Source: Anabaena sp. FACHB-1237 (GTDB lineage: Bacteria; Cyanobacteriota; Cyanobacteriia; Cyanobacteriales; Nostocaceae). From it: 64,000 nucleotides of DNA. Below the pieces are notes generated by a model, which saw only the letters and a program-made list of their open reading frames with translations, ran no database searches and was not told the DNA's origin. Of the stretch, positions 5,116 through 34,712 are shown piece after piece (within the stretch, counting starts at the first letter, position 1; each line of letters opens with the position of its first letter). The DNA lies in assembly GCF_014696225.1 (NCBI RefSeq), contig NZ_JACJPV010000001.1, forward strand, positions 124,001 through 188,000, written 5' to 3'. Made by a program: the position numbers and the translations under genes.

Positions 5116-5340
5116 CGGCTTTTCTTGATTTTTAATATACTCCTTTAATATTTCTAATGGCGCACCTTCTACAGAAAAATTATTAGGCGTTGCTGAATTG
5201 GGGTATGATACTTATTTCGCGCATCAGCGAAGCGAAGCACTTGAGTTAGACGCAAAGTTTCAAATTTTGAATTTCTCAATTTCATACCTGAGTTCAGCAA
5301 CGCCAATTATTAATTATGTAGGGTATATTTATAGCAAGGT
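5093..5340. mobile_element. IS200/IS605 left-end remnant fused to ndbB and split by a MITE
   Basis: TGGGATACAAGCCCCGTCC and the following hairpin match the left end at 3222. After it, on the minus strand, comes a decayed end of tnpA (GAPLEILKEYIK). The remnant supplies the ndbB stop codon and is interrupted at 5186-5304 by a MITE. There is no right end or tnpB nearby. Confidence 0.75.
5186..5304. repeat. GGCGTTGCTGAA MITE, copy 1, intact with target duplication
   Basis: A 119-bp element starting GGCGTTGCTGAA and ending TTCAGCAACGCC. It is flanked on both sides by AATTATTA (5178-5185 and 5305-5312), a perfect 8-bp target-site duplication. Related copies: 14684-14785 (inverted, truncated), 24430-24543 (intact ends) and 32319-32413 (truncated). 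Confidence 0.9.
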
Positions 5341-32237: not shown

Positions 32238-32318
32238 ATTTTTTATTTCTTTATTTAGACAATTATCAAACTATTATATATCATAATTTCATTATTTGCA
32301 TTAGGAGTTAAAAAATAA

Positions 32319-32413
32319 GGCGTTGCTGAATTGGGATATGATATTTATTGCGCGCGTCAGCGAAGCGAACCACTTGCGTTAGATGCAAAGGAGCAAAGAC
32401 ACAAAGTTTCAAA
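32319..32413. repeat. GGCGTTGCTGAA MITE, copy 4 (truncated)
   Basis: Starts GGCGTTGCTGAATTGGGATA, contains GCGTCAGCGAAGCGAACCAC and AAAGTTTCAAAT, then loses similarity before the second end. An extra GAGCAAAGACAC interrupts the middle. Confidence 0.75.
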
Positions 32414-32493
32414 TATGGTATTTTATCACCAATTACCAGCCTGAATTAGATGAATAGTAATTTGTGTAACTAACAACAATAAAGAACAAAAAT

Positions 32494-33105
32494 ATGGCAA
32501 CTAAACTAACTGAAAGATTTGAAAAAGCTGTGGTTTATGCCATTCAATTGCATTCTTTACAAGTGCGTAAACAAACAGAAATTCCCTATGCGACTCACTT
32601 ATTGAGTGTATCATCTTTAGTATTAGAAGATGGGGGAGATGAAGATGAAGCGATCGCTGCATTATTACATGATGCTATTGAAGATCAGGAAGGGTTATAA
32701 ACAAGAAAAGTAAATATTAGAATATTTTGGAGAAAGAGTGACAGAAATAGTAGATGGTTGTACAGAATAAATTATCAAACCTAAACCACCTTGGCGCGAT
32801 CGCAAATTGAATTATTTAGAAAAAATTCGCAATGGTTTCTTACCGTCGTGTAGCCTTAGCAGATAAGCTCCATAATTCCCGTTATATTTTAACGGACAAA
32901 AGACAAAAGAAAGATGTAATTTGGGATAAATTCGGTGGTAAAAAAAGCAGGAATTTTATGGTTTTATCGCACGTTTTTAGATATTTATAAGGCCGATAAT
33001 TTTCTATCTATGTTACTACCAGAATTGGAAAAATAGGAAGATGGTGTAATTCGTTTATTTAGTTTTAATCCTGAACAGGAGGTAATTGTCAAATGGATTC
33101 CTTAA
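32494..33105 (+). pseudogene. HD-domain phosphohydrolase (RelA/SpoT HD-like), degraded
   Basis: An intact start, MATKLTERFEKAVVYAIQLH, leads to the HD motif AALLHDAIED, then a stop at 32698-32700. The original frame can be followed through several shifts: EYFGERVTEIVDGCTE, PPWRDRKLNYLEKIR, ALADKLHNSRYILTD and, at the end, FNPEQEVIVKWIP with a stop at 33103-33105. At least three frameshifts or stops occur, so the gene is dead. It resembles stand-alone HD hydrolases related to the SpoT ppGpp hydrolase domain. Its 3' end overlaps the start of the coiled-coil gene. Confidence 0.8.
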
Positions 33106-33803
33106 CTAATCAATATCGTCAGATTATTAAAAAAAATCTTGAAGAATATGCTGATTTATTTGGTAAAGCTGAAAAAAAACTTGCATCTTTACAAGCTGAA
33201 TACTTAGAATTACAAGAATCTATTAAGAATATAGAAATACTGAAATCAGAATCATCTTTGCGAAAGCAAGAATTAGACCTGGAAACCATAAAAATAGAAG
33301 AGGATATTGAACAAATTACAACAGAAAATAAAAATCTCAAAAGTCAATTAGAAGAATTAAATCAGAGTAACCAAAACTTAACCAAGGTGAATTTACAACT
33401 AGAAAAAGAAAATGAAGAATTAAAACTATTAGAAAATCAATTATTTCTGTTACACAAAGAATATAAAGAATTAAAAGAATCTATTGAACATATAGAAATC
33501 TTAAAATCAGCATCAACCTTACGGAAGCAAGAATTAGAACAAGAAACAAGAAAACTAGAGGAAGATATTCAACGCATTTCTAAAGAGAATAAAAACCTTC
33601 AAACTCAAGTAGATACATTAAGTTATAATAATCAACAGCTAACTGAAGCTAATAGTAAGCTGAAAAAAGATAACAGAGATTTAAAGAATATATTAGATCA
33701 AATCAAACTTAAATTAACAATTCATATCAATAGTTTATTGAGATTAGAAGATAGTGAAATTCGCAAGGGTTTAATCAAGTTATTACAATCTATACAGGGT
33801 TAA
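33093..33803 (+). CDS. Coiled-coil protein with two 72-residue internal repeats
   Basis: 236 residues, almost entirely helical and charged, predicted coiled coil. Residues about 40-111 and 124-195 are a duplication: IKNIEILKSESSLRKQELD matches IEHIEILKSASTLRKQELE, and ENKNLKSQLEELNQSNQNL matches ENKNLQTQVDTLSYNNQQL. A short C-terminal domain ends RKGLIKLLQSIQG. There is no signal peptide. A strong ribosome-binding site (AGGAGG) lies nine bases before the ATG, partly inside the end of the HD pseudogene. It begins a three-gene run with 8- and 13-bp gaps. No function recognised. Confidence 0.75.
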   Translation: MDSLTNQYRQIIKKNLEEYADLFGKAEKKLASLQAEYLELQESIKNIEILKSESSLRKQELDLETIKIEEDIEQITTENKNLKSQLEELNQSNQNLTKVNLQLEKENEELKLLENQLFLLHKEYKELKESIEHIEILKSASTLRKQELEQETRKLEEDIQRISKENKNLQTQVDTLSYNNQQLTEANSKLKKDNRDLKNILDQIKLKLTIHINSLLRLEDSEIRKGLIKLLQSIQG

Positions 33804-33811
33804 TAATTTTT

Positions 33812-34249
33812 ATGGTTAATTATAAAAGTAAGAAAATTTTTCAAGGGATGACTTATTGTGAACTGCAAAAACATAACTCACAAAATAGAATTAAATTATC
33901 TCCAGAAGATCAAAAATGGTTAAAAGAGAATAATTATAAAAATATCAGATGGGAAAATGTTATTAGTCTATATAATCAAATTCAAGATTTTTTAGTGAAG
34001 TATCAGGTAGAAGATTTAACCCTGGAAGAATTATTTTTACAAGCGGATCATATTGGTAATAAATATCTCACAGAGGAAGAAATACAAGATTTTCAGCAAA
34101 AACTAGCAAAACAACTTAATGAAATTGCAGAAGAAATAGATAAACAGTTTCCTGATACAGAAATAGAAATTATTGATTTTAGTCAAAACACTAAATCTAA
34201 ACCCAGAAAAAAACGCAATCAAAAAACCTACAGAACTACTAAATTATAG
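33812..34249 (+). CDS. Hypothetical protein, middle gene of the coiled-coil/HNH operon
   Basis: 145 residues, charged and helical, with a strongly basic C-terminal tail (KSKPRKKRNQKTYRTTKL) that could contact nucleic acid. Residues about 73-100, LEELFLQADHIGNKYLTEEE, resemble the start of the next protein (IDELFKIADKIGNKRYHKLT), so the two share a module. Eight bases separate it from the coiled-coil gene and 13 from the HNH gene. Not recognised otherwise. Confidence 0.7.
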   Translation: MVNYKSKKIFQGMTYCELQKHNSQNRIKLSPEDQKWLKENNYKNIRWENVISLYNQIQDFLVKYQVEDLTLEELFLQADHIGNKYLTEEEIQDFQQKLAKQLNEIAEEIDKQFPDTEIEIIDFSQNTKSKPRKKRNQKTYRTTKL

Positions 34250-34262
34250 GAATCATAAAAAT

Positions 34263-34712
34263 ATGAAGTTAGAAAATAAAAATATTGACGAATTATTTAA
34301 AATAGCAGATAAAATTGGTAACAAGAGATATCATAAGCTGACAGCGCAAGATTTTGAGAATTATAAAAAATTCGACCATTGGAGATATATTAATGGTGAT
34401 TCAGAATGTGGAATAACTGAAGAAAGTAAAAATTGGGTAAGAGATAATTCTGATTGGTGTTGTCCAATTTGTGATCAGAAATACAAAGACGATAATGTGA
34501 GAACTATTGATCATAAGTTAGCAAGATCACAGTATCCCTGGTTATCATTAGAATTTAAAAATTTATGGGTTATTTGTCGAAATTGTAATTTGGAAAAGGG
34601 AGAAATGCACTGGTATGAATATGAACTTTATATTTTTAAAAAATATCCAGAAATTTATCCTTTTATAAAATCTGTACGTCCTGTTAGCTTATTACGTTCT
34701 TTAAAGGAATAA
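34263..34712 (+). CDS. HNH-type nuclease domain protein
   Basis: 149 residues. The C-terminal part carries an HNH/zinc-finger nuclease fold: WCCPICDQKYKD (zinc cysteines), RTIDHKLARSQYPWLS (first catalytic His after Asp), FKNLWVICRNCNLEKGEM (Asn and the second zinc pair). The N-terminus has the module IDELFKIADKIGNK shared with the preceding protein. I used the ATG at 34263 because upstream in-frame codons overlap the previous gene and AGGA precedes this ATG. It could be a nicking or restriction-type nuclease working with the two proteins encoded before it. Confidence 0.82.
   Translation: MKLENKNIDELFKIADKIGNKRYHKLTAQDFENYKKFDHWRYINGDSECGITEESKNWVRDNSDWCCPICDQKYKDDNVRTIDHKLARSQYPWLSLEFKNLWVICRNCNLEKGEMHWYEYELYIFKKYPEIYPFIKSVRPVSLLRSLKE

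Follow-up and report, generated by a model that had tools for sequence, protein, structure and literature searches.

An HNH nuclease operon of cyanobacteria whose linker and nuclease share a segment that recurs in viral proteins

In a 64,000-nucleotide (nt) stretch of Anabaena sp. FACHB-1237 DNA (contig NZ_JACJPV010000001.1, positions 124,001 to 188,000; hereafter the window), which is part of a 4.65-Mb genome, three open reading frames (ORFs) of 236, 145 and 149 amino acids (aa) follow one another on the same strand, with 8 and then 13 bp between them, just as an earlier sequence-only reading of the window had placed them. They form an operon that is conserved among cyanobacteria and that encodes a coiled-coil protein (gene 1), a linker protein (gene 2) and a predicted HNH nuclease (gene 3). 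The genes and their main parts are as follows, in window coordinates:

33093-33803, + strand: gene 1, coiled-coil protein, 236 aa; a chimera that joins about 24 codons of xisI to the family protein's truncated body
33812-34249, + strand: gene 2, encoding the 145-aa linker protein; all family matches below cut-off
33827-34009, + strand: N-terminal helical domain of the linker (YREVQ..N...GYkN.GW), common to the middle gene of the type B and C trios described below
34013-34195, + strand: C-terminal half of the linker (C-half profile match at residues 68-128), with the docking-like segment, whose consensus is LEELFLEADRIGNKYLT...EIDKQFPDTEIEIIDFS
34263-34712, + strand: gene 3, HNH nuclease (predicted), 149 aa; Pfam PF01844
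34275-34370, + strand: N-terminal copy of the shared segment in the HNH protein (IDELFKIADKIGNKRYHKLT), from BLASTP, hhalign and linker-profile scoring
34461-34601, + strand: HNH core with two Cys pairs, PF01844, residues 67-113

The assignment of gene 3 to the HNH endonuclease superfamily stands, and its product is a predicted nuclease: PF01844 is matched at 25.5 bits (cut-off 21.4), the domain pattern Cx2C...DH...N...Cx2CN is intact, and C67, C70, D83, H84, N100, C105, C108 and N109 are invariant in 30 HNH sequences. The window protein is closest to its Anabaena lutea counterpart (86%). In six pairs of close relatives the ratio of nonsynonymous to synonymous substitution rates (dN/dS) is 0.11-0.28 for the HNH gene and 0-0.36 for the linker gene; the HNH pairs that include the window (with loci L002-L004, 0.20-0.28) lie above the L002-L003 pair (0.11), which would fit a mild relaxation. 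The HNH core of gene 3 is generic. Its relatives in viral contigs (24 loci at 24-33% identity) were set aside as generic HNH proteins, a search of phage records with the HNH protein gave zero matches at E 1e-5, and its structure model was discarded as too poor (predicted local distance difference test score, pLDDT, 55.8).

The other two proteins fall below the cut-off of every described family. The linker reaches none in Pfam or NCBIfam (best Pfam match DUF1542, 0.005); its best PADLOC match, AbiEi (PDLC02243; E 1.7e-4, 19.5 bits, residues 32-124), is too weak to claim and spans two linker parts that are independent in other proteins, and no AbiE partner was seen. The linker had been described as basic, which its overall isoelectric point of 7.7 and its 24 K+R against 23 D+E do not bear out. 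AlphaFold2 models residues 11-60 with confidence as an N-terminal helical domain (pLDDT 90-93) and, with less certainty, two helices across the shared segment (residues 71-82 and 88-112), and a fold search with this model returned nothing convincing (best E 4.7 in PDB and 0.15 in BFVD). Gene 1 reaches no family cut-off in Pfam or NCBIfam, and its best matches in PADLOC and PHROGs are coiled-coil stretches of large SMC/JetC-like models, far below cut-off. No title or abstract opening describing this operon was found in a literature search whose coverage excludes most subscription journals. The description of the trio as an accessory module that could not be placed in a known system holds: its distribution is patchy, its surroundings vary, and genes 1 and 2 match no family above cut-off.

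Whether the three genes occur together elsewhere had been left as a check, and they do so across cyanobacteria, from which alone the system is known so far. An HNH scan of genome contigs gave 32 relatives at 58-86% identity, all labelled cyanobacterial; the linker adjoins 31 of them and gene 1 adjoins 30, the misses being a contig end (L016) and a Chlorogloeopsis locus (L010, which exact matches equate with L144) that keeps the HNH ORF and has lost gene 1 and the N-terminal half of the linker. Among 386 cyanobacterial genomes the HNH profile matches 13, ten of these near full length, and the linker profile matches 16, of which the near-full-length ones fall in the same ten genomes (the linker of G209 is read with one internal stop). 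The linker is present at E<1e-20 in 35 of 217 Nostocaceae; across 30 of these loci that were fetched, window included, gene 1 is found in 29, the HNH gene in 29 and all three in 28. The trio is also complete in nine of nine further full-length loci, a set that overlaps the previous one, since the Nostocaceae loci (28/30) take in the window as well as five of the genomes behind the nine. A plasmid search yielded one record with all three genes, Acaryochloris pMB01. One locus (L170) has gene 1 and the linker and lacks the HNH gene, and in another (L013) the three genes lie in one reading frame. We read the trio as an accessory, horizontally spread and patchy system of cyanobacteria, a view that forms part of the explanation we tentatively prefer below.

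The motif that the sequence-only reading had seen in both the linker and the HNH protein proved significant in a profile-profile comparison (hhalign probability 87%, E 3.6e-6, 30 columns) and in BLASTP (E 9e-5). Scored with a profile built from linkers only, 33 HNH ORFs lie between -1.7 and 17.9 bits, with a median of 11.9 bits; the maxima are 10.0 bits for 9,900 shuffled HNH sequences and 7.7 bits for 318 neighbouring ORFs, and 23 of the 33 exceeded the best shuffle. The linker profile also scores proteins that carry a G(N/Q)RYxT string, and that we take to be Uma2-like, at 12-18 bits; the support for the motif is therefore that of a pairwise and not of a database-wide test, and the second half of the segment is therefore not distinctive alone. 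Strong matches to the segment are confined to linkers of this operon, ten of them in the 386 cyanobacterial genomes and 35 in the 217 Nostocaceae. Eight weak matches in the 386 genomes (E 0.003-0.009) were set aside; one is the HNH copy, five are Uma2-like proteins with G(N/Q)RYLT, one is acetolactate-synthase-like and one is an unrelated 617-aa frame (by eye). Among the Nostocaceae, 18 further places match at E 2.7e-5 to 8.6e-4; the seven inspected are all Uma2-like, and these matches were rejected as convergence.

The C-terminal half of the linker recurs in viral proteins. In a tblastn search of 50,697 phage records the linker found a 57-aa protein of Leptolyngbya phage Lbo402-yong5 (WYD66234.1, here L110; E 0.02) and, up to E 10, one other match at chance level. 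Scans of IMG/VR added the following records, given with their scores against a profile of host linkers only, by which the 57-aa protein scores 35.0 bits:

L137: 1049-aa portal protein (Phage_portal_3), with the segment at residues 573-631 in a C-terminal extension; 70.3 bits
L138: 1939-aa protein, whose neighbouring gene matches families of peptidases and tape-measure proteins; 56.4 bits
L117: 121-aa ORF on a Mu-like contig with Phage_Mu_F nearby; 44.7 bits
L139 and L140: 44-aa ORF near a C5 methylase gene, on two contigs sharing nearly all of the sequence compared; 36.2 bits (L139)

Scaled to 1e8 sequences, the five viral proteins have E values of 6.5e-16 to 6.8e-5, and 40 shuffles of the L137 and L138 proteins score 1.5 bits at most. 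It is the linker (KYLT, KYQT, KYQS) that the viral copies resemble, not the HNH form (KRYHKLT), and the copy in the L137 portal reaches over the EIDRQFP...VDYS part of the linker, nearly the whole C-half. A search for relatives of the L137 extension found the extension itself alone. L137, L139 and L140 contain 11, 19 and 22 sites that we take to be HIP1, compared to fewer than 0.2 expected from base composition. These copies, which could not have been seen from the window, hint at a conflict of these bacteria with their viruses that has so far gone unnoticed.

Two other kinds of trio resemble this operon (type A). The N-terminal domain of the linker also heads the middle gene of type B trios (L056, L057) and type C trios (L059-L061, L063, L064 and the plasmid loci L111-L114, with L064 = L111 and L060 = L112 by exact matches), as indicated by hhalign between the type A and the type B/C domains (98.5%, E 3.8e-15); the HNH cores of types A and C are related at E 9.6e-14. 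Such trios, for example L057 and L064/L111, share with the operon the gene order, the middle-gene domain and an HNH (type C) or HNH-like (type B) third gene; they differ from it in that their middle gene aligns without the virus-shared segment, and their families are likewise unassigned. No homology was detected between gene 1 of type A (first N-terminal kind) and that of types B and C (hhalign 4.4%). The third protein of type B has an HNH-like fold in which the Cys pairs are lost (by eye). Four cyanobacterial plasmids carry type C trios (L111-L114), in one case near hsdR, in one near VapC and in one near BrnT. Two further frames (L058, L062) carry the linker N-terminal domain, and at L044:1107-2812 an HNH gene follows two coiled-coil-like genes, with nucleotidyltransferase-like and HEPN-like genes downstream (by eye), possibly a further trio type.

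Comparison with known systems gave partial likenesses that are concentrated in the nuclease. Septu (PtuA/PtuB) is a small system with an HNH nuclease, in which a PtuA-type ATPase gene lies next to the HNH gene. The window HNH protein matches the PADLOC PtuB1 profiles (best E 7.4e-10, residues 33-134), but it reaches 12.5 of the 150 bits required by NCBIfam PtuB, and its partners are a coiled-coil protein and a linker, with no ATPase domain match in genes 1 and 2. Its best PADLOC match, M01B of PDC-M01 (E 3.9e-11, residues 59-115), is limited to the HNH region, and no partner model appeared for gene 1 (best 25 of 26 matches) or for gene 2 (a single match). Unlike IscB, an RNA-guided nuclease that has a RuvC-like part and works with a guide RNA, the window protein is 149 aa long and comprises the HNH part only, and the IscB model gives 15.3 of 175 bits.

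Gene 1 of the window departs from the family, and its surroundings contain further remnants:

33037-33166, + strand: xisI start and preceding bases, fused in frame to gene 1; DNA identity 88% to L006 and 85% to G393:C79
33189-33424, + strand: first copy of a duplication of 87 codons in gene 1, period 261 nt, from DNA self-comparison
33450-33685, + strand: second copy, 72% identical to the first over 236 nt
32489-33033, + strand: degenerate RelA/SpoT-type HD gene, outside the operon; HD_4 at E 2.8e-11 over the first 68 codons, 87% to G000:C67:86863-87410

Family members of gene 1 have a coiled coil that leads into a conserved C-terminus and is preceded by an N-terminal domain, of which there are two different kinds. 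Neither N-terminal domain is present in the window, where an xisI start takes their place: over its first 24 residues the protein matches (79%) the beginning of a 112-aa ORF that adjoins the operon in L002 and L006, the bases before this start are presumably the end of xisH, and the junction lies at 33162-33166, similarity to the L002 gene 1 beginning at 33162. We infer that the 112-aa ORF is XisI; the Pfam family XisI matches three of 131 neighbour proteins (hand-picked, in 26 of the 32 loci, among 202 ORFs that lie up to 3 kb away), and their correspondence to the three clustered ORFs is likewise our reading. Judged by this alignment, window gene 1 is a chimera, with the first codons of xisI read in frame into a truncated family protein body. 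The window copy of the operon is probably impaired because gene 1 has lost its N-terminal domain. XisI-like genes lie near the operon in three loci (L002:4133-4471, L006:6580-6918, L007:6945-7295); the window retains a fragment, the one fused to gene 1. The two repeats in gene 1, for which 72 residues had been proposed, have a period of 87 residues (261 nt). The 87-codon duplication also occurs in L002 and L004 (281 aa = 194 + 87) and not in L003 (194 aa), and the closely similar operons of L003 and L004 differ by one such unit in gene 1 (L003:4958-5542, L004:4697-5542), a gain or loss of the repeat.

The HD pseudogene reported upstream is present as a degenerate remnant, but it does not overlap gene 1: it ends at 33033 and gene 1 starts at 33093. 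As a part of the module it was rejected, with an 87% copy elsewhere in the genome and none found at the loci of relatives; it is unrelated debris. At window positions 32311-32390 lies a stretch of about 80 bp with four further copies in the genome (C19, C12, C67 and window 5175-5257; 88-92% identity), resembling a small dispersed repeat. None of nine genes flanking the operon in the window recurs beside the operons of relatives save for ABC-transporter matches at 25-42%; flanking genes are shared by L002 with L006 and by L003 with L004 (by eye). An empty-site comparison found hemB in relatives and derived no matched empty site. Among the 25 of 150 Pfam families listed for the 131 neighbour proteins, the commonest are ABC transporters (4), AAA_21 (4), XisI (3) and Phd/YefM (3); ParE is matched by two of the 131.

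The explanation that we tentatively prefer, with a confidence a little short of even, is that the operon is an accessory system that cleaves DNA and probably acts against phages, and that phages imitate its docking segment. In this mechanism the HNH endonuclease would be held and aimed by gene 1 and the linker, the variable and interchangeable N-termini of gene 1 would act as the sensor, and the target of the nuclease would probably be invading DNA. As the linker and the HNH protein share a helix-loop-helix-like segment, both probably dock on a common partner; this may most likely be gene 1 or a host factor. The phage copies, whether small ORFs, portal extension or very large protein, would be decoys that occupy the docking site. 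We offer the function of the operon and the decoy role as hypotheses; docking, nuclease target, defence and decoy role are read from the patterns described above. Two precedents bear on the decoys. PMC5512222 predicts that domains fused to portal or MuF proteins, and very large virion-packaged proteins, are delivered into the host, and the polyvalent proteins of phages and conjugative elements treated there, portal-fused or very large and with accessory domains, are like L137 and L138. PMC11481870 reportedly describes a phage mimic of a bacterial defence component, an antitoxin mimic that acts against DarTG; here the imitated part would be the docking-like segment.

Several observations weigh against this explanation. 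The similarity between linker and HNH protein is short, and 10 of the 33 HNH ORFs fail to beat the best shuffle; the two that score lowest (L022, L029) are called without the N-terminus, and others simply match weakly, among them L006 (3.3). The genes customary for sensing or self-protection, such as an ATPase or a methylase, are missing from the operon. Scanning the 131 neighbours, for which there was no background set, revealed no clear association with defence islands: PADLOC matches at E 1e-10 are few (one family with four, one with two and 17 rows with one). Six or seven Nostoc loci hold the operon between recA-like and xseA/xseB-like genes, and in five of these loci a small antitoxin-like gene is present as well (by eye). 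The viral copies number five proteins in six records, with a host recorded for one, the tblastn match at E 0.02, and three of the six records (L110, L117, L138) have zero HIP1 sites in the stretch examined. The viral count is a lower bound because the IMG/VR scans rest on exact peptide patterns. A defence-type role, as the sequence-only reading had suggested, is possible. A more detailed proposal, that of an anti-phage nuclease system, found so far in cyanobacteria only, which would act through the segment common to the linker and the HNH effector and which cyanophages would counter with decoy mini-proteins or with portal- or virion-delivered decoys arriving with the phage DNA, is on balance unlikely.

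The two strongest viral matches, the portal extension and the 1939-aa protein beside a peptidase/tape-measure-like gene, allow the relation between operon and phage to be read in the opposite direction. The segment may originally have been a virion or packaging element of phages, which the operon would use to bring the linker and the HNH protein to the portal or packaging machinery and cut DNA during packaging or injection. That the portal match covers nearly the entire C-half of the linker, beyond the part shared with the HNH protein, speaks for this origin. The related portals do not: portals related to the L137 core occur in 6 of 194 cyanobacterial genomes, five of the six align to L137 only up to residue 457 of 1049, ahead of the segment at 573-631, the sixth does not align at all, and the tails of the five are unalignable. 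Three viral copies are moreover small ORFs, and the six viral records, from the IMG/VR scans and 50,697 phage records together, are few, although their number is a lower bound. We consider this origin distinctly improbable.

Still less probable is that the trio is a toxin-antitoxin or otherwise selfish addiction unit, in which the HNH protein would be the toxin, gene 1 and the linker the antidote, and addiction the cause of its maintenance. The small size, tight spacing and patchy distribution of the trio are in keeping with such a unit, as are the Phd/YefM, ParE and XisI proteins among its neighbours (3, 2 and 3 of 131). However, the Chlorogloeopsis locus keeps an HNH ORF though gene 1 and half of the linker are gone, gene 1 and the linker persist in L170 in the absence of the HNH gene, and the window keeps a constrained HNH gene beside a damaged gene 1, all of which is suggestive only. 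Many homing enzymes are HNH proteins, and a host function in DNA processing or repair, or a homing-type endonuclease cassette, either without a role in defence, would suit the recA/xseA-flanked Nostoc loci (by eye) and the varied neighbours elsewhere, but we rate it as low as the addiction unit, given that most related genomes lack the operon, that it lies in varied places with its three genes co-inherited, and that the viral copies would be left unexplained.

The preferred explanation of an accessory, probably anti-phage system would have consequences beyond the window. Two of the three proteins score below the cut-off of every described family, and the three genes are inherited together in very different cyanobacteria. 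A segment with strong host matches in this operon only, and present also in viral proteins, is an unusually direct and testable pointer to a system with which these phages interact. If the explanation is true, it would bring a new system to the biology of cyanobacterial phages, together with a candidate counter-gene, WYD66234.1, in an isolated phage, Lbo402-yong5.

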